Shown piece after piece: positions 4,124-55,444 of a stretch of DNA of 64,000 bases. The notes below the pieces were generated by a model, which was given only the letters and a program-made list of their open reading frames with translations, searched no databases and was not told where the DNA came from. The position numbers and the translations under genes are program-made. The DNA is taken from positions 2,616,501 through 2,680,500 of the forward strand of contig NZ_CP051131.1 in NCBI RefSeq assembly GCF_013378075.1, given 5' to 3'. Source of the DNA: Parasphingopyxis algicola (GTDB lineage: Bacteria > Pseudomonadota > Alphaproteobacteria > Sphingomonadales > Sphingomonadaceae). Each line of letters opens with the position of its first letter. The stretch's first letter is position 1.

Positions 4124-4336
4124 TTTGCCAGACTCGACCTTGCGGGGATTCTGATCGTCAGAAACTACCTGTCGGAAGTTCGCCGCACCGGCCCGCTCCC
4201 CCTCCCGGCCTCCCACAGGGTATACTGAATGGGAGGCCGGGAGGGGGAGCGGGCCGGTGCGGCGACGTTGCGCGAGCAACGTTCTGACAAACCAATACCG
4301 GGTGCGGCGCTCAACCGTCCGGTTGAGTCTGACAAA
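4124..4336 (+). repeat. Compound palindromic repeat, family 1, copy 1
   Basis: The centre is a perfect 35-bp inverted repeat: left arm 4181-4215, 14-nt loop 4216-4229, right arm 4230-4264. On each side are smaller hairpins of 18 nt (4163-4180, 4265-4282, 4310-4327), each bounded on the outer side by TTTGTCAGA or its complement TCTGACAAA and on the inner side by CGCCGCACCGG or its complement. A degenerate outer module begins at 4124, one base after the stop codon of the M20 gene. The sequence is non-coding; arginine/proline-rich open frames inside it are artefacts of the palindrome. Four more copies are at 41870, 52541, 53981 and 55174. Confidence 0.95.
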
Positions 4337-4523
4337 GGAAAGCGCTCGCGCTGCCCTGATATTTGTCGAAAATAATTCTCAATAGATATCAGGCAATTGA
4401 TCACTTCTGTCGCTCAACCCGATGGGCAAATTCCGTTTCCATCGAATCGGATTGATCGGCTAGTACGATAATTGCGAATCCGGCTTTGCCCGGACCCCTC
4501 AGTTCCAACCAGGAGAGCAAATC
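4337..4523. other. Non-coding region upstream of rubrerythrin
   Basis: A relatively AT-rich stretch of about 190 bases between the repeat element and the rubrerythrin gene. It should contain the promoter of the rubrerythrin operon. A GATAAT resembling a -10 box occurs near 4467, but no well-spaced -35 box could be paired with it. The ribosome binding site is CAGGAGAG just before the ATG at 4524. No gene was seen. Confidence 0.5.
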
Positions 4524-4949
4524 ATGGATCTCAAAGGCAGCCAGACCGAAGAAAATCTCAAAGCCGCGTTTGCGGGCGAAAGCCAGGCCAATCGCCGCTA
4601 TCTCTATTTCGCACAAAAGGCCGATATCGAAGGGCATAACGATGTCGCCGCGGTGTTCCGTTCGACCGCCGAGGGCGAGACCGGCCATGCGCACGGCCAT
4701 CTCGAATTTCTCGAGGAAGTCGGCGATCCGGCGACCGGCGAGCCGATCGGCACGACCGAGCAGAATCTCGGCGCCGCCATCGCGGGCGAAACCCATGAAT
4801 ATACGGACATGTATCCGGGCATGGTGAAGACCGCCCGCGAAGAAGGGTTCGACGAAATCGCCGACTGGTTCGAAACGCTGGCCAAGGCCGAAAAGAGCCA
4901 TGCCGGCAAGTTCCAGCGGACGCTCGATACGCTGAAGGCCGAAGCGTAA
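4524..4949 (+). CDS. Rubrerythrin family protein (no rubredoxin domain)
   Basis: A 141-residue ferritin-like diiron protein. Glutamate/histidine ligands expected in the four-helix bundle are visible in [26 protein letters not shown] and EKSHAGKF. The usual C-terminal rubredoxin-like CxxC pair is absent, so this is the short form that must take electrons from a partner. Rubrerythrins reduce hydrogen peroxide. The following genes encode an Fe-S oxidoreductase and a DUF3501 protein; this trio recurs in proteobacteria, so the Fe-S protein is a plausible electron donor (inference). Confidence 0.93.
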
Positions 4950-4976
4950 GCGCTTTGCGCAGCTGACATGAATTGC

Positions 4977-5005
4977 GGGGATGGGCGAAAGCCCGTCCCC
5001 CTTTT
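4977..5005 (+). terminator. Rho-independent terminator after rubrerythrin
   Basis: A 10-bp stem with one G-T pair (GGGGATGGGC, loop GAAA, GCCCGTCCCC) is followed by CTTTTC. It lies between rubrerythrin and the Fe-S oxidoreductase, which are otherwise expected to be co-transcribed. It may work as a partial terminator giving more rubrerythrin than downstream message. Confidence 0.75.
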
Positions 5006-5038
5006 CTTATGAAACAGGGTCAATAGGGGAGCAGCCGC

Positions 5039-6370
5039 ATGCAGGAAGGCAGCCTGGAAGCGCCGACACGCCATCCGATCGCGTGGCAGGACGACGAATT
5101 TTACGACGAGGAACTGCTCGACAAGGAGCTGCGCCGGGTCTTCGACATCTGTCATGGCTGCCGCCGCTGCTTCAATCTGTGCGACAGCTTTCCCCAATTG
5201 TTCGACCTGATCGACGAGAGCGAGAATGAGGATGTCGAGAGCCTCGACAGCGCCGATTTCAAACCGGTCGTCGATGCCTGCACCCTGTGCGACATGTGCT
5301 TCATGGTGAAGTGCCCTTATGTGCCGCCGCACGAATTCGATCTCGATTTCCCGCACCTGATGCTCCGCGCCCGTGCGATCGAGCATAAGAAGGGCGAGAC
5401 GGGTTTCGCCGACCGGGAGCTCGCCAAGACCGACCGCAACGGCAAGATCGCGACTGCGATCCCCGGCATCGCCAACTGGGCGATGAAGGAATCGAACGGG
5501 CTCACGCGCGGCACGCTGGAAAAGACGCTGGGCATCGACAAGCGCGCGCACCTGCCGCGCTATGAGTCGAAACCGCTGGCCAAGACGCCGGCAAAAGCGA
5601 TGCCCGCAGTCAATATCGACGCACCCAGTTTCGGCCGGAAAGCGGCGATCTATGCGACCTGCTACGCCAATTTCAACGACCAGACGCCGGGCCGGGCCGC
5701 GCTCGACGTGCTCGCGCATAACGGCGTGTCATGCCGGATCGAACATCCGCATTGCTGCGGCATGCCGCTTCTAGAAAATGGCGATCTGAAGGGCGTCGCG
5801 AAAAGCGCCGAACCGGTGGCCGCGCATTTCGAGCCGCTGATCGATCGCGGCTACGATATCGTCGCGCTGACCCCGTCCTGCGCGCTGATGCTGAAATTCG
5901 AATGGCCGCTGATCCTGCCGGACGATCCGGTCGTCCAGAAACTCGCCGAGAATACGCGGGACCTCGCCCAATATGTCGTCGAGCTGTCGAAGGACAAAGG
6001 GCTGGTCGAGGTGCCGGAGATGGACAGCAAGATCGGCATGCACTTCGCCTGTCACAGTCGGGCGCAGAATATGGGGCCGAAAGCGCTCGAAATGCTGCGC
6101 CTGATCCCGGGCGCGACGCCGACGATCGTCGAGCGCTGCTCGGGCCATGGCGGCAAATGGGGCATCATGGCCGAGCATTACGACACCGCCGTCAAGCTGG
6201 CCCGGCCGACCGTTCGCAATCTGAAGAAAGCCGATCCCGATTATGTCGTCAGCGAATGCCCGCTCGCCGGTCCGCATCTGCGCGAGGTGATGGCAATGGC
6301 GGATGGCGATGCCGCGCCCGACCGGGTCGGCCACCCGATCGAGATACTGGCCAAGGCATATGGATTCTAG
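5039..6370 (+). CDS. Fe-S oxidoreductase, GlpC/heterodisulfide-reductase type
   Basis: A 443-residue cytosolic iron-sulfur protein. Two N-terminal [4Fe-4S] motifs are visible: [11 protein letters not shown] with cysteines at 38, 41, 44 and 48, and a second cluster CTLCDMC followed by KCPYVPP. The C-terminal half has cysteine-rich motifs of the heterodisulfide reductase subunit B / GlpC type: [26 protein letters not shown] and ECPLAGPHL; note CSGHGG in place of the usual CCGMGG. It probably passes electrons to the rubrerythrin encoded just upstream. The gene is 10 bases before the DUF3501 gene. Confidence 0.88.
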
Positions 6371-6380
6371 GGAGCAAGAC

Positions 6381-6974
6381 ATGCCGCGCAACAGCCGCGA
6401 AATTACCGCCGAGGATATCATGGGCCTGGAGGATTATGAGCAGATCCGCGCGGAGAAACGCGAAGAGAATCTGCTCCGCAAACGTTTCCGCCGGATCGCG
6501 GTCGGGCCGCATGTCACCGTCTATTTCGAGAGCTGGGACACGATGTGGCTCCAGGTCCAGGAAATGCTGCGCATCGAAAAGGGCGGTGAGGAGCAGCTCG
6601 TCGACGAGCTCCAGGCCTATAATCCGATGATCCCCGATGGCGACGAGCTGACCTGCACCCTGATGTTCGAAATCGAGGATCCGGGGCGGCGCGATGCGCT
6701 GCTCCACCAGCTCGGCGGCGTGATCGATCATATCCATCTGGTGATCGACAGCGAGAAGATCGGCGCCATGCCCGAACAGGACGTCGATCGCGAAAGCGAT
6801 AGCGGGAAGGCCTCGTCGGTACTGTTTCTCCATTTCCCGTTCACCGCGGAGCAGAAAGCCAAGTTCCGCGATCCCGCCAACCGGCTCTTCTTCCAGATCG
6901 ACCATCCTGCCTATGGCCATGCGGCCATCATCGGCGAGGAAATGCGCAACGAGCTGGCCAAGGACTTCGCCTGA
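6381..6974 (+). CDS. DUF3501 family protein
   Basis: A 197-residue soluble protein opening with SREITAEDIMGLEDYEQ and a basic stretch before a conserved-looking core. It resembles DUF3501, a family of unknown function that recurs downstream of rubrerythrin and an Fe-S oxidoreductase. The ATG at 6381 follows GGGAGCAAGAC; an earlier in-frame start at 6303 lies inside the preceding gene and has no support. No cofactor motif is evident. Gene order is the only hint to function: an accessory role in the peroxide or redox function of the cluster. Confidence 0.87.
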   Translation: MPRNSREITAEDIMGLEDYEQIRAEKREENLLRKRFRRIAVGPHVTVYFESWDTMWLQVQEMLRIEKGGEEQLVDELQAYNPMIPDGDELTCTLMFEIEDPGRRDALLHQLGGVIDHIHLVIDSEKIGAMPEQDVDRESDSGKASSVLFLHFPFTAEQKAKFRDPANRLFFQIDHPAYGHAAIIGEEMRNELAKDFA

Positions 6975-7099
6975 GGCAGCCGGGGCGGGCGTTGCGGTTG
7001 GAGCGTTTACGAGGCGGAGAGCCGGCCTCGAGCGGAACTAAAGGAATTGTTAGGCCGTCCACCCTATATGGTAAACGATTGATATGGTTGTTGGGGGGT

Positions 7100-9673
7100 A
7101 TGTTGTCCGATCACGAGGACACAGGTGGGAGTGATCGTTACGCGTCGCTGCGTGACTATGAAGCGCTCCAAAACCCTTCGGGAAGCCGATTCGATCCAAT
7201 ACTCGAGTTGGTCTGCGGCCTTATCGGCGTACCGCGAGCGACGATCTGGCTCGCCGAGACCGAGCGGCACCTATTCGAGCGCGCGACGGTCGAAGCCCTA
7301 GGCGGCCCCGCGCCGAGCGAACAGCTCCGCAGTGAACTGGTCAACGCCGAGCCGGAAGGCTTCGAAATCCACGACTTCGCCAAGGATCCTCAGTCCGCAG
7401 CGCTCGTGCAACCGGGCGATGCTCCAGAACCAAGCTATTATATCGGCTTTGCGCTGCGGTCGCGCGACGATCGGTTCGTCGGCGTGCTTTCGGCCATGGA
7501 TACGCGCCCGCGAGCGCCGCTCGACCAGCAACGCCGCGCACAATTGCGGTCTATCGCCGATATCGTGGTCGATGCGATAGAGCTGCGCAGGCTGGGCGTT
7601 TCGGGCGCGATATCGAAACTCGTCGGCGATACGATGTCCGATGCGCTGGTGCTGGCGGGACACGATCGTAGAATCCTGCTCTGGAACAATGCCGCCGAAC
7701 GGATATTCGGGTGGTCCGCCGTGGAGGCCGTCGGCAAGCCGGTCACCGAAATCATCGCGGAGCCCGATTGCCCCAAGTTCGACGATGCCTGTCGCCGGCT
7801 CGGTGCCGAAGGCAGCCGTGCAAGTTTCGCGCAGCCGATAGAGTTGAACGCACGTAACCGGGAAGGCGAACGCATTCCGGTGTGCGTCACGCTCGGCCAA
7901 TGGGAGGTCGCGGGCCTCGACAATCCGTCGGGCGTTGCCGCGTTGATCACGGACATCTCGGATCGCAAGCGGATCGAAACGGACTATGCGCACACCCAGA
8001 GTTTTCTCGACGTGATGCTCGAGAACCTGCCCTCGATGCTGTTCGTCAAGGATGTGGAAACACGCCGCTATGTTCGGGTGAACACGCCGGCGGCACGGGC
8101 GGCAGGCGTCGAGGCCGAAGAGATGATCGGCAAGACCGACACCGAACTGTTCGGCGCCGATCAGGCCAGGGAACTGCGCAAGCGCGACGATCAGGTCATC
8201 GCCTCCCGAAAGGTCCATATCTATGAAGGCGAAATGGCCGGCCGCGGCGAAAATCAGCTGGTGCGGACGCAGCGCGTCACATTTGCCGCTCCGAACGGCG
8301 CACACTATCTGCTCGGCATCTCCGACGACATAACCCGTCATGTGCGAGCCGAGGAAAAGGCCGCCTACCTCGCCAACCATTGTCAGGTCACCGGATTACG
8401 AAACCGAAAGGCGTTTACCAGATACCTGTCCGCCCGGATCGAAAATGGCGCGGATTTTGCGGTCATGCGCTGCCATATCGGCGGGCTTCAAAGGATTGCT
8501 GCCTTGCATGGGCAAACCACCGCCGATGCCGTTTTGAAGGACGGCGCGACGCGCCTTGAGCAGGCACTCGGTCCGGATCCCATTATTGCCAGGCTCAGCG
8601 AAAACGACTTGGCGATCGCGGTTCCGGAATCCGGCCCGGTGTCCAACCTCAGACGGCTCGGCATGCTCGTTCATTCCGCAATAGCGGCCCCCGGCTCGAT
8701 CAACAGCGGCACTCTCTCCCTGTCTGCGAAGGTCGGCATCGCCCGCCGGCCGGCCGATGGATCCGGTCTTTCGAAACTTTTGCGGGCCACCGAACTGGCT
8801 CTGGCATCGGCGATCACCGACCCCGATGAAGATGTCCGTTTCTTCGAAGCGTCCATGCAGGCCGAAGCGGGCCATCGCAGAACGCTGGAGCGCGATCTGC
8901 CTCGGGCCTTTGCACGCGGCGAGATGAGCCTGTCTTTCCAACCGCTCGCCTGCCTCGAAAGCGGCCGGATCGCGGGCTTCGAAGCGCTGGCCCGCTGGAC
9001 CCATCCGCAATATGGGTCGATCGATCCCGAGATCTTCGTGGCGCTTTCGGAAAGGAACGGCATGGTAATGGAGTTGGGCCGGGAGACCCTCCGGCGCGCG
9101 ACGAAAGAGGCCGCGTGCTGGGATCCGCCGCTGAGCATCGCAGTGAACGTCTCCCCGGTTCAGCTTCATGACGACGGTTTTGTCGAGAGCGTCGAGAAAT
9201 GCCTTGCCGAGAGCGGGTTGGCCGCTGAGCGGCTCGAACTGGAAATCACCGAAGGCGTCCTGTTGGGCGACAGCGAAAAGATCATTGACGTTCTCAATGC
9301 GCTGAAGACGCTTGGCGTTCGGATTTCGATCGACGATTTCGGCACCGGCTATTCGTCATTCGCCTATTTCGACATGTTCGCGTTCGACAAGGTCAAGCTC
9401 GACAAATCCTTCGTTCAGAAGATGCGAAACAGCAAACATGCGTTCGCGGTGGTGCGCGCCGTGGTCGGCCTCGGCGCCGACCTCGATATCCCGGTGGTCG
9501 GCGAAGGTGTGGAAGCCGATGCCGATCTCGAGCTGCTGAGAGAGCTGGGATGTGCGCAGGCGCAGGGCTATCTGATCGGCAAGCCAAGCCCGATCGAAAC
9601 GTTCGAGCGCGTCGTTTTGAGCCGCGACGTCGCTGCGGGCGAAGGGGCGGGACCGGCAAGGCGCATGGCCTAG
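7100..9673 (+). CDS. GAF-PAS-PAS-(degenerate GGDEF)-EAL signalling protein
   Basis: About 857 residues with no membrane segment. A GAF-like domain comes first, then two PAS domains (around residues 175-300 and 310-430), a GGDEF-like domain and a C-terminal EAL domain. The GGDEF signature is replaced by SENDL, so diguanylate cyclase activity is unlikely. The EAL domain keeps EAL, NVSPVQL, EITEG, DDFGTG, KLDKSF and GEGVE, the residues needed to hydrolyse cyclic di-GMP. It is best read as a sensory c-di-GMP phosphodiesterase, with the degenerate domain possibly regulatory. The start is uncertain: ATG 7100 was chosen; TTG 6992 is possible. Confidence 0.87.
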   Translation: MLSDHEDTGGSDRYASLRDYEALQNPSGSRFDPILELVCGLIGVPRATIWLAETERHLFERATVEALGGPAPSEQLRSELVNAEPEGFEIHDFAKDPQSAALVQPGDAPEPSYYIGFALRSRDDRFVGVLSAMDTRPRAPLDQQRRAQLRSIADIVVDAIELRRLGVSGAISKLVGDTMSDALVLAGHDRRILLWNNAAERIFGWSAVEAVGKPVTEIIAEPDCPKFDDACRRLGAEGSRASFAQPIELNARNREGERIPVCVTLGQWEVAGLDNPSGVAALITDISDRKRIETDYAHTQSFLDVMLENLPSMLFVKDVETRRYVRVNTPAARAAGVEAEEMIGKTDTELFGADQARELRKRDDQVIASRKVHIYEGEMAGRGENQLVRTQRVTFAAPNGAHYLLGISDDITRHVRAEEKAAYLANHCQVTGLRNRKAFTRYLSARIENGADFAVMRCHIGGLQRIAALHGQTTADAVLKDGATRLEQALGPDPIIARLSENDLAIAVPESGPVSNLRRLGMLVHSAIAAPGSINSGTLSLSAKVGIARRPADGSGLSKLLRATELALASAITDPDEDVRFFEASMQAEAGHRRTLERDLPRAFARGEMSLSFQPLACLESGRIAGFEALARWTHPQYGSIDPEIFVALSERNGMVMELGRETLRRATKEAACWDPPLSIAVNVSPVQLHDDGFVESVEKCLAESGLAAERLELEITEGVLLGDSEKIIDVLNALKTLGVRISIDDFGTGYSSFAYFDMFAFDKVKLDKSFVQKMRNSKHAFAVVRAVVGLGADLDIPVVGEGVEADADLELLRELGCAQAQGYLIGKPSPIETFERVVLSRDVAAGEGAGPARRMA

Positions 9674-9680
9674 ACCAAGC

Positions 9681-9808
9681 AAATGCCCGCCAGGCGCAAA
9701 GGCCGGACGGGCGTCTCTTCTCCTCCCCCCGGAAAAATTCGGTAGTCCGGGCAGGCGCCCTCCCCGAAGGGGTATGCGACAGGAAGGGGGGCACCGGCTC
9801 CGACCAGT
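9681..9808 (+). repeat. Interspersed repeat, family 2, copy A
   Basis: About 125 non-coding bases that recur, less exactly, at 12479-12608. The first 44 bases (from GCCCGCCAGGCGC) differ at one position only, followed by GTCTCTTCTCCTCCCC and a more divergent second half ending in CACC..CCAG. Internal inverted repeats such as GCCCG with CGGGC suggest a folded element of REP type. It begins about 8 bases after the stop codon of the EAL gene. Confidence 0.8.
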
Positions 9809-9900
9809 CAGATCGTGAATTCCATTCGAGGGGCTCGACAACCCTTCGGGCCGGTCATATCGATCGGGGACTGGTGATTGTCTGACCGGAATGGGGAGCT

Positions 9901-11280
9901 GTGGCGGAAAGCGGGCCGAGCGATGAACAAGAGGCAGCTCTGCAAGCGGCGGCCGACAGGATCGACGACCGCGACACGGCGGGAGCCGAGGCCGCCCTCG
10001 AACGGCTCGCCGAATATCCTGCTGGACGGCAGCAGGGGACGAAGCTGATCGCCGAGGCGATATTCGCGGCCCGCGACGATGACGAGAAACGCGCGATTTT
10101 CGACTTTCTGAGTCCGGCCGTCATCGCCAGTCTCCACTTCGTCAGCGGCACGAACGGCCGCTTCGCCCGGGCGATGATGATGACCTCATGGCACGATGAA
10201 ACCGCGGCGCTGCTTCGGGCCGCATGCGACCTTGTACCGGACGACGCCGGACTCGCCTATCAGTATGTCCGTTTCCTCACCCGGATCGACCGGCCGGACG
10301 AGCTGAAGCGCTTCATCGACGAGCGCGACGAAATGTTCGGCGATCCTGCCAACCTCATGGCGCTGCTCCCGGGCACCGGGCTGACGGCGGAACAACGCGA
10401 CGCCGTTCGCACACTTGTCGAAGAAATGGGCCCGGATACCCCCAAGGCGACGCGCCTGCTGGCCGTGCGCTGGTTGGCGAACCACGGGATGTGGGAAGCG
10501 GCGGCTGGCGCGGCACACAGGCTTGGGGTCAAGGGTTCCGCGTTTCGCGCCACCGGAATGCTCCTCGACCTCATCGACGAAGCGCCCGACACCGGATCCC
10601 GGCCGGAGCCGTTCGAGGGTGCCGACGATGTCTATCTTCGCCGTGCGCCGGAGAGCGGCGGACTGGTGCTGCTTTTCGGCGCCGTCGGCGATGCCAATCT
10701 GCTGACTCTCTGGCTTATCGACCGGTATCTCGCCGCACTCGGGCTCAGCTCGCTGATCATGCGCGACAATCACCGGATGGTGTTCATGCAGGGCGTACGC
10801 TCGCTCGCTCCGGATCGCGACGGCACGATCGACCGGCTCCGCGCAATCATCGACGATCTCGGTGTCGAGCGCCTCTATACGCTGAGCTCTTCGGGCGGGG
10901 GCTTCGGCGCGATGGCATATGGGCTGATGCTGACGGCGGAACGATGCCTGTGCTTCAGCCCGGTTTCGCGCATCGGCGGCGTCGCCGAACATGACCCGAG
11001 GACGCCCGTCATTCGCGAGCGGCTCGAACGGCAATGCCCGCCAGCGGAATGGGATATCCTCGACTGGATCGACCGGACGGAGCACCGCATGCCGATCTCG
11101 CTCTACTATGGGCGCGACAAGGCCGTCGACCGTTTCCACGCCGAGCACTTGGCCGGCCAGCCTGACGTGAATCTTTTCCCCGTCGAGTCGGGCGGCAAAG
11201 GCGGTTCGCTGCTCGCCGTGGCCGCGCAAAGAGATCTCGGCGAAGTGATCGCCCGCGCCTTCGATCTGGAAAGCCCTTAG
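9901..11280 (+). CDS. Helical-repeat protein fused to an alpha/beta-hydrolase-like domain
   Basis: A 459-residue protein starting at GTG after GGGGAG. The first half (to about residue 230) is alpha-helical, of TPR or solenoid character, rich in Ala and Leu. The second half looks like an alpha/beta hydrolase: a beta strand GLVLLFG, then a nucleophile-elbow-like TLSSSGGGFGAMAYG, a later LYYGRDKAVDRFHAEH that could hold the acid and a histidine. No signal peptide or membrane segment. The exact family was not recognised; the hydrolase assignment rests on motif order only. Its neighbours do not suggest a pathway. Confidence 0.7.
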   Translation: MAESGPSDEQEAALQAAADRIDDRDTAGAEAALERLAEYPAGRQQGTKLIAEAIFAARDDDEKRAIFDFLSPAVIASLHFVSGTNGRFARAMMMTSWHDETAALLRAACDLVPDDAGLAYQYVRFLTRIDRPDELKRFIDERDEMFGDPANLMALLPGTGLTAEQRDAVRTLVEEMGPDTPKATRLLAVRWLANHGMWEAAAGAAHRLGVKGSAFRATGMLLDLIDEAPDTGSRPEPFEGADDVYLRRAPESGGLVLLFGAVGDANLLTLWLIDRYLAALGLSSLIMRDNHRMVFMQGVRSLAPDRDGTIDRLRAIIDDLGVERLYTLSSSGGGFGAMAYGLMLTAERCLCFSPVSRIGGVAEHDPRTPVIRERLERQCPPAEWDILDWIDRTEHRMPISLYYGRDKAVDRFHAEHLAGQPDVNLFPVESGGKGGSLLAVAAQRDLGEVIARAFDLESP

Positions 11281-11319
11281 CCGGGCCCGGCGGTTACACG
11301 ATCCGGCCGCGCATTGCCC

Positions 11320-12366: not shown

Positions 12367-12478
12367 CGGAGCCCTCCCCGTACAACCAACACCATTCACC
12401 AAATCATTATCGAAATCGGGGATAGAGTCGAGGGCGAAATGATCCGGCCGCCCGCGACGGGATGGCGAACCGGACAGA

Positions 12479-12608: not shown

Positions 12609-12616
12609 TAAGCTCG

Positions 12617-13897
<1,281 letters not shown>

Positions 13898-13907
13898 TAC
13901 AGTTAAT

Positions 13908-41186: not shown

Positions 41187-41864
41187 ATGCGTGTACTCAT
41201 TGTCGAAGACGAACCGACACTCGGGCGGCAGCTTCGCGCGACGCTCGAAGGCGCCGGCTATGCCGTCGATCTCGCCACCGATGGCGAGGACGGGCATTTC
41301 CTCGGATCGACCGAAAGCTATGACGTGATCGTGCTCGATCTCGGCCTGCCCGAGATCGACGGGCTCACGGTGCTCGATCGCTGGCGCAAGGAGGATATCA
41401 CGATCCCCGTCCTGGTGCTGACGGCGCGCGACAGCTGGTCGGACAAGGTGGCCGGCCTCGATGCCGGGGCCGACGATTATCTGGCGAAGCCGTTCCAGAC
41501 CGAGGAGCTGATCGCGCGGCTCAGGGCGCTGATCCGGCGCGCGTCGGGTAACGCCTCGAGCGAGCTCGTCGCGGGCGATGTCCGTCTCGACACCCGCTCG
41601 GGCAAGGTCACGCTCGATGGCGAACCCGTGAAGCTGACCGCGCAGGAATACAAGCTGCTCAGCTACCTCATGCACCACAAGGGCAAGGTGGTCAGCCGGA
41701 CCGAACTGATCGAGCATATTTACGACCAGGATTTCGATCGGGATTCGAACACGATCGAGGTCTTCGTGACGCGCATCCGCAAGAAGCTCGGCGCGGAGGT
41801 CATCACGACGATCCGGGGTCTGGGGTACAGCCTCGAGGATCCGAGCGAGCGGCGGACGGAATAG
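41187..41864 (+). CDS. OmpR/PhoP-type response regulator
   Basis: A 225-residue two-domain regulator. The receiver domain has the acidic pair ED at 7-8, phosphorylated Asp51 in VIVLDLGLPE and the conserved Lys in AKPF. The C-terminal winged helix has YKLLSYLMHHKGKVVSRTEL and VFVTRIRKKLG. The cognate kinase is the next gene, but 232 bases containing a palindromic repeat element separate the two, unusual for such a pair. Target genes are unknown. Confidence 0.95.
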   Translation: MRVLIVEDEPTLGRQLRATLEGAGYAVDLATDGEDGHFLGSTESYDVIVLDLGLPEIDGLTVLDRWRKEDITIPVLVLTARDSWSDKVAGLDAGADDYLAKPFQTEELIARLRALIRRASGNASSELVAGDVRLDTRSGKVTLDGEPVKLTAQEYKLLSYLMHHKGKVVSRTELIEHIYDQDFDRDSNTIEVFVTRIRKKLGAEVITTIRGLGYSLEDPSERRTE

Positions 41865-41869: not shown

Positions 41870-42052
41870 TTTGTCAGAATTTCCCTCGCGGAAAATCGCC
41901 GCACCGGCCCGCTCCCCCACCCGGCCTCCCAACAGGGTACACTCAATGGGAGGCCGGGTGGGGGAGCGGGCCGGTGCGGCGCTCGACCGACAGGTCGAGT
42001 CTGACAAATCAGCGCCGGTGCGGCGATTTCCTGCTAAGGAAATTCTGACACA
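41870..42052 (+). repeat. Compound palindromic repeat, family 1, copy 2
   Basis: Central 35-bp perfect inverted repeat: left arm 41897-41931, 15-base loop 41932-41946, right arm 41947-41981. Side modules: TTTGTCAGA at 41870 with hairpin 41879-41896 on the left; hairpins 41982-41999 and 42026-42043 on the right, each followed by TCTGACA. Arm position 23 is A where copies 1 and 3-5 have T, and the opposite arm has changed to match. The element starts 5 bases after the response regulator stop and ends about 45 bases before the kinase. Confidence 0.95.
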
Positions 42053-46841: not shown

Positions 46842-46850
46842 AGTTCGATT

Positions 46851-47693: not shown

Positions 47694-47757
47694 GACGGCG
47701 GGCCTTCTAGCGCATACATCGCACGGCTTATGAACGAAAAAACCGCGAAAGGCATCC

Positions 47758-48483: not shown

Positions 48484-48493
48484 CGGCGTGGCC

Positions 48494-48946: not shown

Positions 48947-49038
48947 GGCTTTCACTCCCAATGCTGCCCAAGGCTTGAATGGCAGCATAGCGGAAAATCG
49001 ACGATGCCGGAAGCGCAGAAACGCGCGTCGGCGATGGC

Positions 49039-49590: not shown

Positions 49591-49778
49591 CGAACCCTCC
49601 GGTTCGTTGTTGATCCGTCAGGCCATTATGGCACGCAAGAGGTTGACGAAGCGTTAACCATAAGGCGCTGTATCCCGTGTTGAATCAGCATTGTTGCAGC
49701 GTATCAACCGCGCGGCGCAATTTTATGTGGATTGACGCAACAATGTTGCAAGAAAACATCGGCCGGATCGCCGTATCG

Positions 49779-50123
49779 CTAGGGCGCGGCCCGGCTCGGT
49801 CCGAGCAGCACTATCCGGATGTCGCCGTCGGCGGAAAAGCTGGCGATCAGCAGATAGATGGTCAGAAACAGCCCGCCGCCGGAAAAGGCGAGCAGCGCGA
49901 GCGCGAAGCCCGTGGTGCTGAACGCGTGCCGCCAGGCGACCCAGACGGCCGACAGTATCAGGAAGCTCAGAAAATCGACATTGAACTGCCCGGGCCAGCC
50001 CAAAGCGGCGATATCGCCGAAAAAGGCGGGGAACAGGTTCATTCCGTGCTCGCCCACGACGATCGCCGTATACAGGACGATGCCGAGACAGAGCAGAACC
50101 AGCAATGTGCGGAACGCGGCCAT
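49779..50123 (-). CDS. Small integral membrane protein
   Basis: A 114-residue protein with three predicted membrane helices (LLVLLCLGIVLYTAIVV, around FLSFLILSAVWVAW, and GFALALLAFSGGGLFLTIYL). The loop FFGDIAALGWPGQFN between the first two looks conserved. Start at 50123 is supported by GGAG at eight bases; the longer open frame is not. A hairpin (CCGACGG / CCGTCGG) lies in its leader at about 50132-50154. Function unknown. Confidence 0.68.
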   Translation of the reverse strand: MAAFRTLLVLLCLGIVLYTAIVVGEHGMNLFPAFFGDIAALGWPGQFNVDFLSFLILSAVWVAWRHAFSTTGFALALLAFSGGGLFLTIYLLIASFSADGDIRIVLLGPSRAAP

Positions 50124-50216
50124 GATTATTCTCCGACGGGTCCGTGGTCCGTCGGCGTTAGGCGGGCAGGTGCCGCGTTTCAATTACCCCGGAGGTAAGG
50201 GCGTCCGGAACGACGC

Positions 50217-50456
50217 TCAGTCGTCCTTCTTTTCCTCGTAACCGGATGAGGGAACCGGCTGGTCGTGGCCGGGCTGCGTGTTGGCGGGCGGATCGGATGC
50301 GGGAAAGGTCTCCTTCAGCCCTTCCTCCAGTTCTTCCTCCTCGCGGGCCTTATCGGATTTGTCCGCATCGGCGCCTTTATCATCCGGATCGGGCGGCGCG
50401 ACGGACATTTTCCGCATCGCCTCTTCGTCGACAATCTGGTCCCTGTCGGCAGTCAT
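50217..50456 (-). CDS. Small charged protein with ETFPASDPP motif, likely stress-induced
   Basis: A 79-residue, highly charged, probably disordered protein. It carries the motif KETFPASDPPA found in many small alpha- and gammaproteobacterial proteins of unknown role. AAAGGAGA precedes the ATG at 50456. A good match to the EcfG promoter is found 26 bases upstream, so it is probably part of the general stress response. Confidence 0.78.
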   Translation of the reverse strand: MTADRDQIVDEEAMRKMSVAPPDPDDKGADADKSDKAREEEELEEGLKETFPASDPPANTQPGHDQPVPSSGYEEKKDD

Positions 50457-50481
50457 CGCAGGTCTCCTTTCTCCAATCACC

Positions 50482-50506
50482 AACCGCACAGGGCGCGCAT
50501 CGTTCC
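50482..50506 (-). promoter_or_regulatory. Candidate sigma-EcfG (general stress) promoter
   Basis: On the minus strand GGAAC (50506-50502) is followed after 16 bases by GGTT, matching the GGAAC-N16/17-cGTT pattern of the alphaproteobacterial stress sigma factor EcfG. It lies 26 bases upstream of the small ETFPASDPP gene. Confidence 0.65.
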
Positions 50507-50617
50507 CTCGCGAACGAAACTTGCGTTTCGACGAACGGATCGACCAAGCGCTAAGGCTGTTCGACTGGGAGCGGGCGGCGCCGAGACGGATCGCGATCCA
50601 GCCGCTACAAGGCCCCC

Positions 50618-51760
50618 ATGAATGTGAAGAGTTATGAATCGACGCGCAGCACATTGATCGGACATCGGCTCGGCCTCGTGTCGATCATCGGCCTTTGGGG
50701 GTTCTATTTCGCCGTCGTCACCATCCGCGCTGCGGTCATGGGCTATCCGGGCCAGTCCCAGATGCTGCTCTACCGCACCATCGTGATAGCGGTCGCGATC
50801 GGCCTCACCTTCCTGCTCTACCTGTTCCTCGAACGCTTCGCGGATCGGCCGCTGCGCTGGCGCATCCCCATCGCCTTCGCCGCGGCGCTGCCCGTGGCGG
50901 CGATCATCGCGGGCTTCAACCTCTACCTGTTCGAAGTCTGGGACCCGCTCGGCATCTTCCGCACGGAGGAATGGGCCGAAGAGCGCGAGATGATCGAGGA
51001 ATTCATGGCGCGCGATCCGCTGGCCATGTGGCGCGGCCTCGCCGAAGCCGTGATGGCGCGTTACTTCGTTACGATCGCCTGGGCCTTGCTCTACATGGCG
51101 CTGGGCTATGCGCAGATCGTCCGCCAGGCCGAACGCCGCGCCGCGATCTTCGCGCAGGAAGCGCAGACCGCGCAGCTTCGCGCACTGCGCTACCAGGTCA
51201 ATCCGCATTTCCTGTTCAATACGCTGAACGTCCTTTCCTCGCTCGTCATGCGCGACCGGCGCGACGAGGCAGAGAAGATGATCCTCAACCTTTCCACCTT
51301 CTACCGGACCAGCCTGACCTCCGAACCGGCCGACGATGTCGCGCTGGAGGAGGAGATCCGGCTGCAGCGCCTCTATCTCGATATCGAGGCGGTCCGCTTC
51401 CCCGAACGGCTGCTCGTCGACATTTCGATCCCCAAATCGCTGAACGGCTGCTGCGTGCCCGCGCTGATCCTCCAGCCGGTCGTGGAGAACGCGATCAAAT
51501 ATGGCGTGTCGCGGGTGCGGCGTCCGGTCACCGTGTCGATCCACGCGCGCGAGGAGAACGGCAAGCTGATCATCACCGTCACCGACGATGGCGATCCCCT
51601 GCCCGACGATGCGCCGCACGGCACCGGAGTCGGCCTCAACAATGTCCATGAGCGGCTCGACGCGCGCTATGGCGAGGAGAGCAGCGTCATCTGGGGGCCG
51701 CGTCCCGAGGGCGGCTTCGCCGTCACCATCGAATTGCCGATAAACCGGGAAACCTGTTAA
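50618..51760 (+). CDS. LytS/YehU-type sensor histidine kinase
   Basis: A 380-residue membrane kinase. Four membrane helices lie within the first 170 residues, then the His_kinase domain with RYQVNPHFLFNTLN, His197 being the likely phospho-acceptor, and an ATPase domain with PVVENAIKYG and GTGVGLNNVHERL. No periplasmic sensor domain of size is evident. The LytTR response regulator follows 27 bases downstream, so they form a two-component system. Confidence 0.92.
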   Translation: MNVKSYESTRSTLIGHRLGLVSIIGLWGFYFAVVTIRAAVMGYPGQSQMLLYRTIVIAVAIGLTFLLYLFLERFADRPLRWRIPIAFAAALPVAAIIAGFNLYLFEVWDPLGIFRTEEWAEEREMIEEFMARDPLAMWRGLAEAVMARYFVTIAWALLYMALGYAQIVRQAERRAAIFAQEAQTAQLRALRYQVNPHFLFNTLNVLSSLVMRDRRDEAEKMILNLSTFYRTSLTSEPADDVALEEEIRLQRLYLDIEAVRFPERLLVDISIPKSLNGCCVPALILQPVVENAIKYGVSRVRRPVTVSIHAREENGKLIITVTDDGDPLPDDAPHGTGVGLNNVHERLDARYGEESSVIWGPRPEGGFAVTIELPINRETC

Positions 51761-51787
51761 ACCCGCCCGCGGGGAGACTTCCAGACC

Positions 51788-52528
51788 ATGACCGACCCGA
51801 AACCGCTCCGCACCCTGCTCGTCGACGACGAGCCGCTCGCGATCGAACGCATGCAGATCCTGTGCGCCCGCACCGAGGGTATCGACCTGATCGGCACGGC
51901 GCAGGACGGGGAATCGGCGCTCCGGATGGTCGAGGCGCTGCAACCCGAGCTGCTGCTGCTCGATATCGCGATGCCGGGCATGGACGGGATGGAGGTCGCC
52001 CGCGCGCTCGAACATGTCGATCTCGCGCCGGCGATCATCTTTGTCACCGCGTTCGACAAGTTCGCGGTCGAGGCGTTCGATGTAGCGGCGGTCGACTATC
52101 TGCTGAAGCCGGTGGCGCCCGAGCGACTCGAAAAGGCGCTGGCCCGGGTCACCGAACAGTTACGCGAAACCGGGGACAGCGAGGCCGAACCCTCGCCCTG
52201 GACCGAGGAGTTCTGGGTCCCGCACCGCTCCGAGGTCATACGGCTCGCGGCCGACGATATCGACCGGATCGAGGCCGAACGCGATTATATGCGGCTCCAT
52301 ATCGGCGAGCGCAGCTATCTGCTCCACCAGACGATCAGCCATCTCGAGGAACGGCTCGATCCGGCGCGCTTCATGCGCGTCCACCGCTCCTCGATCCTCA
52401 ACCGCGACCGGATAGCCAAGCTCCGCCATGACGGGTCGGGCGGCTGGTATGCGGAGATGGAAGACGGCGCCGAAGTCCGGATCGGCCGCACCTATCTGAA
52501 GAAGGTCAAGCAGATCGCCGGGAAATAG
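51788..52528 (+). CDS. LytTR family response regulator
   Basis: A 246-residue regulator with a receiver domain (acidic pair DD at 13-14, phosphorylated Asp59 in LLLDIAMPG, Lys in LLKPV) and a C-terminal LytTR DNA-binding domain (IDRIEAERDYMRLHIGERSYLL region, FMRVHRSSILN, GRTYLKKV). The partner kinase is the gene upstream. A family 1 repeat starts 12 bases after its stop codon. Confidence 0.94.
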   Translation: MTDPKPLRTLLVDDEPLAIERMQILCARTEGIDLIGTAQDGESALRMVEALQPELLLLDIAMPGMDGMEVARALEHVDLAPAIIFVTAFDKFAVEAFDVAAVDYLLKPVAPERLEKALARVTEQLRETGDSEAEPSPWTEEFWVPHRSEVIRLAADDIDRIEAERDYMRLHIGERSYLLHQTISHLEERLDPARFMRVHRSSILNRDRIAKLRHDGSGGWYAEMEDGAEVRIGRTYLKKVKQIAGK

Positions 52529-52540
52529 GGGCGGGAGTTG

Positions 52541-52764
52541 TTCGTCAGAATTTTCCTTGCGGAAAATCGCGGCACCGGGAGTTGATTGTCAGGGTCGACC
52601 TTCCGGTCGACCGCGGCACCGGCCCGCACCCCCTCCCGACCTCCCAATCAGGATACACTCGTGGGAGGTCGGGAGGGGGTGCGGGCCGGTACCGCGCCTG
52701 AGCTTTAGCGAAGGTCTGACAAAAGGAATCTGCCGCGCTCGACCGGCAGGTCGAGTCTGACGAA
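52541..52764 (+). repeat. Compound palindromic repeat, family 1, copy 3
   Basis: Central inverted repeat with arms 52612-52646 and 52662-52696 and a 15-base loop. Compared with copy 1, arm positions 4, 17 and 28 have changed on both arms (compensated), and position 6 on one arm only, leaving a C-A mismatch. Two modules lie on the left (52541 and 52585, period 44) with hairpins 52550-52567 and 52594-52611; two lie on the right with hairpins 52697-52714 (imperfect) and 52738-52755. It lies between convergent genes. Confidence 0.95.
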
Positions 52765-52769
52765 ACCGA

Positions 52770-52797
52770 ACGCTCCCGGAGCGAACCCCGGGAGCGT
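52770..52797 (-). terminator. Terminator after the first UrcA gene
   Basis: Stem ACGCTCCCGG / CCGGGAGCGT (10 bp) with an eight-base centre. On the minus strand it is followed by TCGGTTTCG, a weak U-rich tail. It ends the UrcA transcript and, with the adjacent repeat, separates convergent genes; it may act in both directions. Confidence 0.6.
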
Positions 52798-52821
52798 CGG
52801 CATCGTTCGAAGGCGTTGGGC

Positions 52822-53121
52822 CTAGCGCGAAGCGCGGGTCCGCACGCGGCGCGCGTGTTCGTCGAGCTGGCGTATGGCCGATGCACGGGTTTCTTCCATA
52901 CAGCGGCGCTCCGACCGCCCGGCATAGACGGTGCGGGTGCCCGGGACGCTGCACAGCCGCCGCGCCGCGCCCGAAATCTGCCGCGCGGCGGCGTCATAGC
53001 CGGCTTGCGACTGGAGATTGTACCGGTCGATATCGATCGTGATCGCATTGTCCGACGCGATCGCTGGAGAAACCGCGAACGTCGCCGCGGCGGCGAGAAT
53101 ATTGGGACGGTAATCAAACAT
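52822..53121 (-). CDS. UrcA family protein
   Basis: A 99-residue small exported protein. Signal peptide to about PAIASD; the mature part has the UrcA pattern: a tyrosine-rich first segment (IDIDRYNLQSQAGYDAAARQI), an RRLC cysteine, and a second cysteine (RRCMEETRASAIRQL) that likely forms a disulfide. AGGAG precedes the ATG. The role of UrcA proteins is unknown; they are common in Sphingomonadales and Caulobacterales. A paralogue is 270 bases away. Confidence 0.85.
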   Translation of the reverse strand: MFDYRPNILAAAATFAVSPAIASDNAITIDIDRYNLQSQAGYDAAARQISGAARRLCSVPGTRTVYAGRSERRCMEETRASAIRQLDEHARRVRTRASR

Positions 53122-53302
53122 GATGATGCTCCTGAACAATTGTCTTTGGCCTGAGCCGGCGGCTTGCTGGATGACGGTCAAGAGTCGGCTCGGTCCGACG
53201 CCGCCGTCGGGCATCTGCTAGAAAAGAACTGTTACCGCTGCGGGTCAGACAACCGGATAAGCGACGAAACGCATTGCTTTTTCTGCATCCGCCACCGCAC
53301 GC

Positions 53303-53337
53303 GAAAACACCCCCGGGCAGAGGGACCCGGGGGTGTT
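53303..53337 (-). terminator. Rho-independent terminator of the second UrcA gene
   Basis: An 11-bp perfect stem (ACACCCCCGGG / CCCGGGGGTGT) with an eight-base loop at 53307-53336, followed on the minus strand by TTTTCG. It is about 50 bases downstream of the stop codon of the UrcA gene at 53388. Confidence 0.85.
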
Positions 53338-53387
53338 CGGTGCGGCCCTGTCGGGGCTGAGCAGGGCCGGGACTTAGCCCGTAAGGG

Positions 53388-53717
53388 CTAGCGCGAGGCG
53401 CCGACCGTGACTGACGGCGACCGCGCGACATCGTTGAGCTGTTCCATCGCATCCTCGACCGCCGCGCCCTGGCAGGCGCGGATCGCATAGGCTTCTTCGA
53501 TGTCGCGGACATCGACGGTGCCGCAGACCTGGCGCGAGGCGCGGTCGATCCGCTCGGTGAGCCGCGCATAGCCTTGGCTCGAGCGCAGGTCGTAGGTCCG
53601 CGTGTCGATGACGACGGTCTCGACCTTCGCCATGGCGGCGAGCGCCGGCGAGGTGGTGAAAGCGGTGGCGGCGCCGGCCATGGCGACCGCGGCGAAAGCG
53701 AAGGCAATTTTCTGCAT
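53388..53717 (-). CDS. UrcA family protein
   Basis: A 109-residue exported protein, paralogous to the UrcA protein just downstream. Signal peptide to about SPALAAM. The mature part holds VVIDTRTYDLRSSQGYARL, then RQVCG and RACQG cysteines. ATG 53717 is preferred over 53723, since AGGAG then lies at seven bases. The two proteins share the Tyr-Asp-Leu and Cys spacing. Its terminator at 53303 separates it from the other copy, so the two are independently transcribed. Confidence 0.85.
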   Translation of the reverse strand: MQKIAFAFAAVAMAGAATAFTTSPALAAMAKVETVVIDTRTYDLRSSQGYARLTERIDRASRQVCGTVDVRDIEEAYAIRACQGAAVEDAMEQLNDVARSPSVTVGASR

Positions 53718-53980
53718 GGTCATACTCCTGAACCTTGGCCCTCCGGGACGATCCCGGCGGATCCGGTCGACGGTCGCCTGCCGGATGATTCCGATCTCGC
53801 CGTCTGCCGTCCTTATAGGCGGTGCACCGATGCCGGTCGTGCCCGGATCGACAGCCGGGCGACGCCTTGCGTCAAATCGACAAACGTCGGAATTCTGTCG
53901 ATCAAGGTTTCGGTTTGTCGCGGCCGGGGCTCGGTTCGGAGGTTGGAAAACACCGTTCGTCGGTGGATTTGTGCGGTTTG
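53718..53980. other. Non-coding region upstream of the second UrcA gene
   Basis: About 260 bases that should carry the promoter of the UrcA gene. On the minus strand a TTGACG and a TATAAG occur, but their spacing is not that of one promoter. No gene or clear site was seen. The family 1 repeat copy 4 begins at its far end. Confidence 0.4.
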
Positions 53981-54238
53981 TTTGTTAGAATGTTGCTGGC
54001 GCAACGGGATTCTTTTGTCAGAATTTTCCTGTCGGAAAATCGCCGCACCGGGTTTTGATTTGTCAGAACATTGCTGTCGCAATGTCGCGGCACCGGCCCG
54101 CTCCCCCTCCCGGCCTCCCAATGAATATACCCTGTGGGAGGCCGGGAGGGGGAGCGGGCCGGTGCCGCGCCTGAGCGTTAGCGAAGGTCTGACAAAAGAA
54201 AACTTGCCGCGCTCGACCGACAGGCCCGGTCCGACAAA
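53981..54238 (+). repeat. Compound palindromic repeat, family 1, copy 4
   Basis: Central perfect inverted repeat: arms 54086-54120 and 54135-54169, 14-base loop. The loop reads ATGAATATACCCTG, the reverse complement of the loop type in the other copies, so the core is inverted here. Three modules lie on the left (53981 degenerate, 54014, 54059) with hairpins ending at 54085; two lie on the right with hairpins 54170-54187 and 54212-54229 (the latter decayed). It ends 13 bases from the stop codon of the esterase gene on the minus strand. Confidence 0.95.
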
Positions 54239-54251
54239 TCAACCTTCTTCC

Positions 54252-55118
54252 CTAGCTCACTTCCCGCGCGAACTGCTCGATATCCGCGAGCGACGGCACC
54301 GAGCCGCGGGTCCAGCGCGACAGCGCCGTCATGATCCGGATATGGCCGATCCCGTCATAGACGATATGGCGCACCGGGACGCCCGCGGTCTCGAGCCGCG
54401 CGGTGAGCCGGCGCGACTGGCGCGGTTTGACGGTATCGTCGGCGCTGCCGTGCAGCAGGAGGGCGGGCGGATCGCCTTCGCCCGCGTAATTGATCGGCTG
54501 GGTCACGGCGAGGTCGGGGACGCGGCCGAAGGCGCCGCGCGTGCTCGGCGTATCGAGCGGCAGGAAATCGTACGGCCCCGCCATGCCGACCCAGCCGGCG
54601 ATCGCCGCCCGGTCCGCGCCGAGCCAGCGTTCGTCCATCGCCAGCATCGCCGCGATGTGCGCCCCCGCGCTGTGGCCGACCATCACGATCCGGTCCGGGT
54701 CGCCGCCGCGCTCGGCGATGTTGGCGCGCACCCAGCGCAGCGCCGCCGCTCCGTCCTCGACAAAGGCGGGGAAATGGACGTCGGGCGAGAGGCGGTAATT
54801 GGGCACGACCGTCACGAAGCCGCGCGCGGCCAGCGCGCGGCCGGCAAATTCGTACCCCGCCTTGTCGCCGGCCCGCCAGCCGCCGCCATGGATGAAGACG
54901 ATGACGGGAAGCGCGGCATCCCCGCCGCGTTCTTCGGGCGCATAGATATCGAGCCGCTGGCGCGCGGCGTCGCCGAAGGCGATGTCCTGCCCGATCCTTT
55001 CGGATCCCGCATCCTTGGGCACCAGCCGGTTGAACAGTATGAGCCGGTCGGCCGTGTAGAGAAACACCCCGAGCGCGACGGCGAGCAGGGCGGCGGTAAG
55101 AAGCGCGGTGCGGAGCAT
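54252..55118 (-). CDS. Alpha/beta hydrolase, carboxylesterase type
   Basis: A 288-residue serine esterase with an N-terminal signal anchor (LLTAALLAVALGVFLYTA). The oxyanion motif HGGGW is near residue 76, the nucleophile Ser150 is in GHSAGAH, the acid in HGSADDTV and the histidine in GIGHIR. It is of the HSL/BD-FAE-like class acting on short acyl esters or polymers. It faces the periplasm. It is flanked on both sides by family 1 repeats, copy 4 being 13 bases from its stop codon. Confidence 0.9.
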   Translation of the reverse strand: MLRTALLTAALLAVALGVFLYTADRLILFNRLVPKDAGSERIGQDIAFGDAARQRLDIYAPEERGGDAALPVIVFIHGGGWRAGDKAGYEFAGRALAARGFVTVVPNYRLSPDVHFPAFVEDGAAALRWVRANIAERGGDPDRIVMVGHSAGAHIAAMLAMDERWLGADRAAIAGWVGMAGPYDFLPLDTPSTRGAFGRVPDLAVTQPINYAGEGDPPALLLHGSADDTVKPRQSRRLTARLETAGVPVRHIVYDGIGHIRIMTALSRWTRGSVPSLADIEQFAREVS

Positions 55119-55173
55119 CGGGCGGAGTTAGGCGCGGCGGGGGAGAATGTCGATATCGGGTCGGAGGGATTGG

Positions 55174-55444
55174 TTTATCAGGCTCAACCTGGCGGTCGAG
55201 GGCGGCACGGGGTTTTCTTTTTCAGAAACTTCCTGTCGGAAGTTCGCCGCACCGGATTTGGTTTGTCAGAAACTTTCTAGCGAAAGTTCGCGGCACCGGC
55301 CCGCTCCCCCTCCCGGCCTCCCAACAGGGTACACTCAATGGGAGGCCGGGAGGGGGAGCGGGCCGGTGCCGCGCTCGACCGGTAGGTCGAGTCTGACAAA
55401 AGAATCCCGATGCGGCGACATTGTGCAAGCACGGTTCCGGCAAA
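55174..55444 (+). repeat. Compound palindromic repeat, family 1, copy 5
   Basis: Central perfect inverted repeat: arms 55289-55323 and 55339-55373, 15-base loop. Three left modules begin at 55174, 55218 and 55262, an exact 44-base period, with hairpins 55183-55200, 55227-55244 and 55271-55288. Right hairpins are 55374-55391 and 55418-55435 (decayed). The last module ends at the base next to the stop codon of the transglutaminase gene. Confidence 0.95.

Follow-up and report, generated by a model that had tools for sequence, protein, structure and literature searches.

A dispersed palindromic element behind genes of Parasphingopyxis, possibly kept as a DNA hairpin

A 64,000-nucleotide stretch of the genome of Parasphingopyxis algicola (bases 2,616,501-2,680,500 of a single contig of 3.67 Mb; hereafter, the window) contains five copies of a large compound palindrome whose central stem is kept paired by matching changes on both arms. 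We tentatively interpret this palindrome as a new variety of dispersed non-coding element that lies at the 3' ends of genes, much like the repetitive extragenic palindromes (REPs), and that may be kept as a DNA hairpin; we infer its function from the sequence.

The core of the element is a central palindrome with arms of mostly 24-38 bp: a C-rich 5' arm, a loop of mostly 12-18 nt, and a G-rich 3' arm. In Parasphingopyxis, one to three modules lie on either side of the core and point inward, some of the outer ones being degenerate. Each module consists of a tag (TTTGTCAGA, with variants), a hairpin (a 7-bp stem that varies in sequence, and a TNNC loop), and a tail (CGCSGCACCGG). A single strand can form a long stem from which two side hairpins branch at every tier, and the inner tier is a four-way junction without any unpaired base. 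With these modules on its flanks, the element exceeds single REPs in size and regularity, as the initial annotation of this stretch had stated.

We studied 60 core-bearing elements from fetched stretches of the window's own genome, which are a part of all its copies, and a genus sample of ten genomes with 134 elements, own and relatives together. The analysis of the arms used 121 of the 134 and the analysis of the module hairpins 123, as we left out elements with divergent or cut arms and two fold-back contigs. At six polymorphic arm positions, 66 of 726 cells in the 121 elements were mismatched, as compared to 307 expected if the 3' arms are shuffled, and the lowest count over 500 such shuffles was 271. 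Over the whole arms, 160 of 4235 cells were mismatched and 54 elements had no mismatch at all. We also built a structure alignment from the 55 copies of regular length among the 58 own elements that have modules on both sides. The modelled structure has a tag stem of 9 bp, a left hairpin of 7 bp, the core of 35 bp, and a right hairpin of 7 bp, with no unpaired column at the junction. Against shuffles that take no account of the relatedness among copies, 95.6% of 3187 cells were paired (versus 84.9%), 354 cells were changed on both sides (versus 128), and the covariation score was 0.272 (versus 0.087, standard deviation 0.005; reached by 0 of 500 shuffles). If the partners are slid by one to three columns, then pairing falls to 39-49%. 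The core is paired in 98.4% of cells and the tag stem in 91.7%, and the module hairpins covary more than the core does. An alternative zipped stem pairs below its own shuffles (82.1 versus 83.8%; 500 of 500 shuffles at least as high). So the arm covariation that the initial annotation described is genuine and strong: compensated changes are in excess, and the copies are not identical products of a recent duplication, as there are 19 six-site haplotypes among 56 own copies.

What made the covariation? The arm cells of the 121 elements include 4075 Watson-Crick pairs, 32 G·T, 27 A·C, and 101 others, and in tandem gene contexts, where the sense strand can be read, there are 10 G·T versus 17 A·C pairs, which are small numbers. 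For the stems of the modules, we considered the 262 of 347 modules in genus elements that are 19 bases long and are not of an internal-mismatch type (see below); of 1834 stem cells, 1740 are Watson-Crick pairs, 26 are G·T, 26 are A·C, and 42 are other combinations. Compensated transversions are common. Because G·T pairs are about as frequent as A·C pairs, whereas selection on RNA should favor G·U, the covariation was more likely made at the level of DNA. Of the causes that the annotation had offered, namely selection on RNA or DNA structure and a hairpin-templated copying between the arms, the data support selection on structure, though not on RNA only. We also note that 50 of the 160 mismatched cells combine two common alleles and that all four allele combinations are present at 7 of 15 pairs of sites. 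This mixing of alleles implies that exchange between copies contributes, so the five copies in the window are not five independent compensatory events.

All five palindromes with their 35-bp central inverted repeat were found where the initial annotation had placed them. The copies and their parts are as follows.

4124..4336, no strand: copy 1, whole element, including a degenerate outer left module at 4124
4154..4291, plus strand: copy 1, inner unit (tag, left hairpin, core, right hairpin, and tag; four-way junction)
4181..4264, no strand: copy 1, core inverted repeat (arms 4181-4215 and 4230-4264; 14-nt loop)
41870..42052, no strand: copy 2, whole element, starting 5 bp past the stop codon of the gene that ends at 41864
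41870..42008, plus strand: copy 2, inner four-way junction unit
41897..41981, no strand: copy 2, core (arms 41897-41931 and 41947-41981)
52541..52764, no strand: copy 3, whole element, 12 bp past the stop codon of the gene that ends at 52528
52585..52723, plus strand: copy 3, inner four-way junction unit
52612..52696, no strand: copy 3, core (arms 52612-52646 and 52662-52696; arm position 6 unpaired)
53981..54238, no strand: copy 4, whole element, including a degenerate outer left module at 53981
54059..54196, minus strand: copy 4, inner four-way junction unit, with its loop in reverse orientation
54086..54169, no strand: copy 4, core (arms 54086-54120 and 54135-54169)
55174..55444, no strand: copy 5, whole element, its right end abutting the stop codon of the minus-strand gene that ends at 55445
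55262..55400, plus strand: copy 5, inner four-way junction unit
55289..55373, no strand: copy 5, core (arms 55289-55323 and 55339-55373)

The loops of these cores are 14 or 15 nt long. Both arms have changed at arm positions 4 (copies 3-5), 17 (copy 3), 23 (copy 2), and 28 (copy 3), and the sole unpaired site is position 6 of copy 3 (C opposite A), all of which agrees with what had been reported. We computed folding z-scores for copies 2 and 4. Copy 4 scored -12.8 as DNA and -13.5 as RNA, and copy 2 scored -17.0 as DNA, with 0 of 200 shuffles equally stable for either copy. The minimum-energy fold of copy 4 contains the inner junction in DNA and RNA alike. Elsewhere in the same genome, two neighboring copies at 2,710,909 and 2,711,639 (locus L100, near 2209 and 2939) have the same inner left module and the same type of outer left module, while their cores differ on both arms and in the orientation of the loop, as if the core had been swapped as a block.

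The two side hairpins that face each other across the inner junction are kept unlike. We considered two stems to be alike if at least 5 of their 7 bases were identical, and we obtained the expectation for own copies from 20,000 permutations. Among own copies, the inner left and right stems were alike in 0 of 58 elements, as compared to 13.0 expected, or in 0 of 55 versus 12.9 if the elements are oriented by their asymmetric loop. In the relatives, 3 of 67 were alike (12.5 expected), including fold-back contigs. Two contigs of genome G005 (C4 and C11; loci L055 and L122) begin with about 170 bases that are the exact reverse complement of the flank beyond the element. Because these contig starts repeat their own right flank in reverse, we attribute them to the assembly folding back on itself at the palindrome, an artifact that imitates an element with identical opposing hairpins. 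With the fold-back contigs removed, 1 of 123 pairs was alike across the genus (24.8 expected) and 1 of 65 in the relatives alone (12.1 expected), and the remaining pair, at L147, is similar over its 5' half only. In the second tier, 0 of 18 pairs were alike versus 3.6 expected (p = 0.016). As a control, opposite hairpins from different tiers were alike in 17 of 81 cases, versus 16.1 expected. As the inner left and right hairpins are kept different, arm-to-arm copying cannot span the whole element in the genus; this part of the hairpin-templated copying that the initial annotation had offered does not stand, while such copying may act on the core.

The sequence of the module hairpins is otherwise quite free: the perfectly paired stems among the 262 modules come in 19 different sequences, and their first pair is A-T in 151 modules and C-G in 98. 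The loop is T-N-N-C (T in 251 and C in 255 of the 262), or G-N-N-A on the other strand. A common module type, CCT-tc-GGC-TTC-GCC-tc-AGG (for example, G000:C1:44240-44278), has a symmetric internal mismatch; on the other strand, this can be read as tandem G·A pairs plus a GAA loop. Tandem G·A and GAA-loop motifs are unusually stable in DNA.

How widespread is the element? In its own genome, the exact module pattern had 77 matches versus 0 for a reversed control. Of 150 scored candidates, 149 matched the covariance model with both strands counted, which implies roughly 75 or more places. Across the genus, the copy number is uneven: the both-strand matches listed amount to at least 149 in the own genome, at least 118 in G005, at least 117 in G008, and at least 65 in G002, down to 2 in G003. 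The module pattern matched 8 of 60 relatives (own genome counted), all of them inside the ten genus genomes, and 0 of the 50 others. The named sequence records with the module are mostly from Parasphingopyxis (Sphingomonadales), with scattered single matches outside the genus. We had considered that this might be a genus-specific family, but the covariance model recovers the core in the family, the order, and the class, so the restriction is true for the TTTGTCAGA modules only; in other genera, the core occurs without modules of this type. In the family (model R1, expectation value up to 1e-5, best 13 candidates per genome scored, so that copy numbers are lower bounds), the core was matched in at least 94 of 249 genomes, from 50 of 96 genera. 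In the order and in a sample of the class (model R1, expectation value up to 1e-8, best 11 candidates per genome scored), it was matched in at least 95 of 296 and at least 15 of 289 genomes, respectively; the latter include the own genome and 14 genomes from outside the order, with 10 family labels.

To exclude mere strong hairpins as matches to the model, we inspected 59 family loci (from the listed best places in 27 genomes outside the genus), 3 order loci, and 18 class loci, the latter taken from the 14 matching genomes that lie outside the order. In the family, 57 of 59 align to the core; the exceptions are L271, which has a divergent stem, and L286, which was badly parsed. In the order and class, we tested 20 of 21 loci for the G-runs described below, leaving out L317, which resembles L316; the skeleton of G-runs is kept in 20 of 20, and 18 of 20 have identical arms. 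BLAST searches with cores also found copies in unannotated plasmid stretches of Novosphingobium resinovorum (where the gene table is nearly empty), Sphingomonas sanguinis (one copy between two convergent annotated genes), and Sphingopyxis sp. Phage records gave no match. Overall, the core looks like an old structured element across the Alphaproteobacteria. It is apparently undescribed, by which we mean only that text searches of the literature and Rfam gave no match: searches for core strings found one unrelated paper, and Parasphingopyxis with "palindromic" found none, with most subscription papers out of reach, while in the window no Rfam family reached its gathering threshold and 52480-55500 had only sub-threshold hits, to microRNA-precursor and similar models.

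Within this freely covarying stem, runs of G on the 3' arm are nearly frozen. Among 31 columns of the 3' arm in 57 family copies, compensated change occurred in 1 of 20 G columns versus 10 of 11 other columns (Fisher p = 2.6e-6), and 5 of 6 columns with C on the 3' arm vary versus 1 of 20 with G (p = 5e-4), where the p-values count columns and not evolutionary events. Because C columns vary while G columns do not, the freezing is not due to G+C content. The loci were picked by a model built from the genus, which could favor conserved columns; of the columns that are conserved in the genus, 4 of 6 non-G columns versus 1 of 20 G columns drop below 95% in the family. Loci L327, L328, and L338 have one extra base, on both arms, in the spacer that separates two runs. 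Four runs of at least 3 G with spacers of 1-7 are present in 56 of 57 family arms and in 114 of 122 genus arms, as compared to 31% of shuffled arms. Uncompensated changes in G columns do exist (4 cells in the family and 42 in the genus). The frozen runs suggest that the 3' arm must also satisfy some other demand, for which a G-quadruplex state or a G-run-reading protein would be the simplest candidates.

The element is found right behind genes. In 47 of 60 own copies, the outermost tag follows a predicted stop codon by no more than 12 bp, with exact abutment in 15 side records; because up to two differences were allowed in matching the tag, a few of these cases may be chance. Gene contexts come from a home-made gene finder. 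The 58 junctions with elements are 29 convergent, 24 tandem, and 5 divergent, versus 34, 160, and 56 of the 250 element-free junctions in the same stretches, and none of the elements lies inside a predicted gene. In the family, a simple frame test found a stop codon within 60 nt of the core for 48 of 59 copies. REPs of E. coli reportedly make ribosomes stall if they lie at most 15 nt from a stop codon (PMC12306157, which cites earlier work, in its accessible text), and the accessible text of PMC3733652 puts the CGTC-1 REPs of S. wittichii mostly at most 20 bp from gene ends. Since known REPs are located near gene ends, the location of the element is REP-like and not new. We also considered two further ideas about the element and rejected both. 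One is that the element supplies the stop codon: TAG, TGA, and TAA number 35, 26, and 10 beside elements versus 84, 104, and 33 at a distance (p = 0.22). The other is an intrinsic terminator: there is no T-run behind the core, and 52480-55500 contains 5 terminator-like sites versus 2.6 (standard deviation 1.5) in shuffled sequence, none of them on a core. At L079 (near 2188-2230) and L081 (near 3130-3170), the T-run of a canonical terminator hairpin leads directly into the TTTGTCAG tag, as though the element preferred to target T-runs. The orientation of the loop showed no clear link to gene direction or replichore.

Elements come and go at these junctions. In G005, an element lies directly past a stop codon where the own genome, G009, G004, and G002 have a short junction. 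At the junction of copy 3, G002 and G008 have other elements (decayed in G002), G009, G006, and G001 have other repeats, and G004 and G005 have none. Half copies or copies with a deleted core occur in G002, G004, and G009. We compared 19 pairs of junctions, some of which share one flank only, and 18 have plainly different elements. In the other pair, L071 and L173, the types of module and the orientation of the loop agree, so this insertion may be an inherited one; it shows two differences that affect both arms. In place of copy 3 (window 52528-52821), G009 and G006 (L214 and L222) have palindromic repeats, CGTCATGCTGAA... and CGTCATTGCGAGG..., which we take to be of the CGTC-REP type from their look, as described in PMC3733652. 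The end of this gene is thus a recurrent site for different families of repeats. At the junctions of copies 3 and 5, G001 (L221) and G008 (L219) have repeats that resemble TM triplex repeats (CCCTCTCCC...GGGAGAGGG...GGGTGAGGGG).

As for mobility, REP-associated tyrosine transposases (RAYTs; Y1_Tnp, PF01797) had no match in the own genome, while control genomes were positive and other transposase families were not searched. A gene of this type, which the initial annotation had proposed to look for, is thus absent from the own genome, and 2 of the ten genus genomes have one Y1_Tnp match each (G006:C142:2840-3163 and G008:C1:34681-35001), not including the copy-rich G005. Target duplications of at least 3 bp at the outermost tags were seen in 0 of 58 elements, with the exact element ends uncertain; on this ground we rejected a miniature inverted-repeat transposable element (MITE) of a DDE transposon.

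In the interpretation that we tentatively propose, the element would spread and persist as a folded DNA strand, either a hairpin or a cruciform. Folding of the DNA would keep the core arms matched through compensated changes, with both strands alike. In the genus, opposing side hairpins would have to stay non-complementary so that each could fold out separately. And because the element reads alike both ways, it might serve, or at least be tolerated, as a bidirectional mRNA 3'-end element, as has been proposed for REPs. A broader version seems rather unlikely to us as a whole: that this is an ancient, class-wide 3'-end element, spreading as folded DNA without a dedicated transposase, whose core competes between a perfect hairpin and a four-tract G-quadruplex as its two states, and which Parasphingopyxis has extended by stacking four-way junctions that unlike opposing hairpins keep open. 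In this version, the G-runs are frozen, and the spacers may vary in sequence, and even in length, if the other arm follows.

Several observations weigh against the proposal of a folded 3'-end element. In the minimum-energy fold of copy 2, the inner left hairpin pairs with the outer right one and there is no junction. Neighboring hairpins on the same side are also rarely alike (7 of 82 versus 15.0 expected, p = 0.008), which the junction model does not need. The rule of unlike hairpins holds for the genus and not family-wide: outside the genus, both side hairpins were found in 20 of 59 copies, and 5 of these 20 have similar stems (two in G064 and one each in G020, G250, and G205). By analogy with REP heterodimers (PMC3733652, accessible text), unlike hairpins could stem from the instability of long perfect palindromes. 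A predicted G-quadruplex would compete with the long G+C-rich stem. Terminator-like sites are not clearly enriched, and some junctions have a separate canonical terminator. No mobilizing enzyme was found, PF01797 being the family searched. Finally, the part of the chromosome opposite dnaA (about 2.45-3.19 Mb, 20% of the total) contains 33 of 60 own copies (binomial p = 2e-9), and a role at 3' ends does not explain this. We assumed that dnaA, at 982,523, marks the origin; because a dif-like pattern gave 3 matches with one mismatch, no better than its reversed control, the terminus is placed only as the point opposite dnaA.

The strongest competitors concern the mobility of the element and its hairpins. 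It is doubtful, in our view, that opposing hairpins are unlike solely because longer perfect palindromes are unstable or are cut by SbcCD, with no need for a junction. Alike pairs would indeed extend the perfect stem, and core-deleted copies exist; furthermore, the accessible text of Di Nocera et al. 2013 (PMC3733652) describes many REP families as dominated by unlike partners and suggests escape from SbcCD as the reason for REP heterodimers. But the 35-bp core is itself kept paired although it already exceeds the minimum for SbcCD, which that text gives as 8 to 16 bp, the self-complementarity of each side hairpin would go unexplained, and five family copies have similar opposing stems. A paired core beside unlike hairpins fits an open junction at least as well as it fits the avoidance of palindromes. 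Somewhat less probable still is a selfish miniature element of the REPIN type (paired, inverted REPs), moved in trans by a single-strand transposase, that is found behind genes because insertions elsewhere were purged and that does nothing for the host. Its presence or absence and differing content at the same junctions, its decayed and half copies, and its uneven copy number across the genus would all be expected, and the anatomy of its modules (a 5' tag, a free but paired stem, and a fixed loop T) is like that of TnpA-REP hairpins as described in the accessible part of PMC8266576. On the other hand, the copy-rich G005 lacks a Y1 or RAYT gene, as does the own genome (copy-rich G008 has one, and so does G006); target duplications are lacking, which counts for little as REPs have none either; and the distance of a few bases to the stop codon is tighter than tolerance of intergenic insertions requires.

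The arms of the core might instead be matched by replication or repair in which one arm is the template for the other (quasi-palindrome correction) and not by selection on structure. The mixed haplotypes fit this idea, and so do compensated transversions if G·T intermediates are not in excess, but the copying would have to end short of the side hairpins, as these remain different, and it would leave the frozen G columns unexplained; also, exchange between copies fits the mismatches that join common alleles equally well. We think this quite unlikely. Selection on the transcript only, as a cis-acting RNA structure, seems very unlikely: although the element sits behind stop codons in convergent and tandem contexts and has a stable RNA fold, the lack of a G·U excess on the sense strand and in the module hairpins weakens this idea, and no Rfam family matches at threshold. 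It would be most surprising if the element were an ordinary CGTC-type REP dimer with a structured spacer, as found in many alphaproteobacteria. Such a dimer shares with it the inverted arrangement, YGTC in the tag, a 4-base loop, the lack of a transposase, and the 3'-end location (PMC3733652, accessible text). But in our element the tag is paired, the 7-bp stem does not have fixed A-T first pairs, the tail is not CCA, and the core is found in other genera without modules of this type.

A multi-copy, covarying core that many families of one bacterial class share is a natural data set for asking what keeps and spreads palindromic repeats without a transposase. The preference for unlike partners is measured here, is specific to facing hairpins, and is tied to a concrete fold. 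And the freezing of G-runs on one arm makes a switch between hairpin and G-quadruplex, or a protein that reads G-runs, testable.

How does the element compare to known repeats? GTAG REPs, CGTC REPs, TM repeats, and MITEs each fail at least one of the features that we tested. As far as the accessible text of PMC3733652 describes them, CGTC REPs are alike in being inverted pairs of tagged hairpins in alphaproteobacteria, without a dedicated transposase, with unlike partners in several families, and near the 3' ends of convergent and tandem genes; the loop of 4-5 bases agrees as well (ours has 4, and for the transposase we searched PF01797 only). They differ in that our TTTGTCAGA tag pairs with its partner tag, our modules are stacked in tiers, and a long palindrome with G-runs is central. 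At the foot, where they have an unpaired CGTC or TGTC, our element has YGTC too, though within the 9-base paired tag and with AGA before the stem. More specifically, their stem is 8-9 bp with A-T as the first and second pairs, whereas ours is 7 bp with a mixed first pair; and their tail is three bases, mostly CCA, in contrast to CGCSGCACCGG. GTAG REPs and the mosaic elements and REPINs built from them (bacterial interspersed mosaic elements, BIMEs) also have a fixed 5' tag, a free but paired stem, a fixed loop base, inverted arrays, and many extragenic copies, and TnpA-REP enzymes read the tag, the paired stem of free sequence, and the fixed loop base (PMC8266576, accessible text); our modules are similar. 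However, our element has no GTAG or GGAG foot and no RAYT in its own genome, and it adds a long central palindrome and a fold with several tiers of junctions. The TM intrastrand-triplex repeats (Holder et al. 2015, PMC4666352, accessible text) are likewise dispersed in proteobacteria and have a C-rich arm, a loop, and a G-rich arm, but a TM repeat needs a second G-rich strand (CCCTCNCCC N3-6 GGGNGAGGG N3 GGGNGAGGG), whereas our element has a single G-rich arm, both in the five copies of the window and at the inspected loci of the family and class, and its stem is much longer. Finally, the G-quadruplex intergenic repeats of Xanthomonas and Nostoc (PMC4692102, accessible text) share unchanged G-tracts, dispersal, and, for some, inverted pairs; those repeats are tandem heptamers, whereas our element is a single palindrome with fixed spacing of its runs and a complementary arm.

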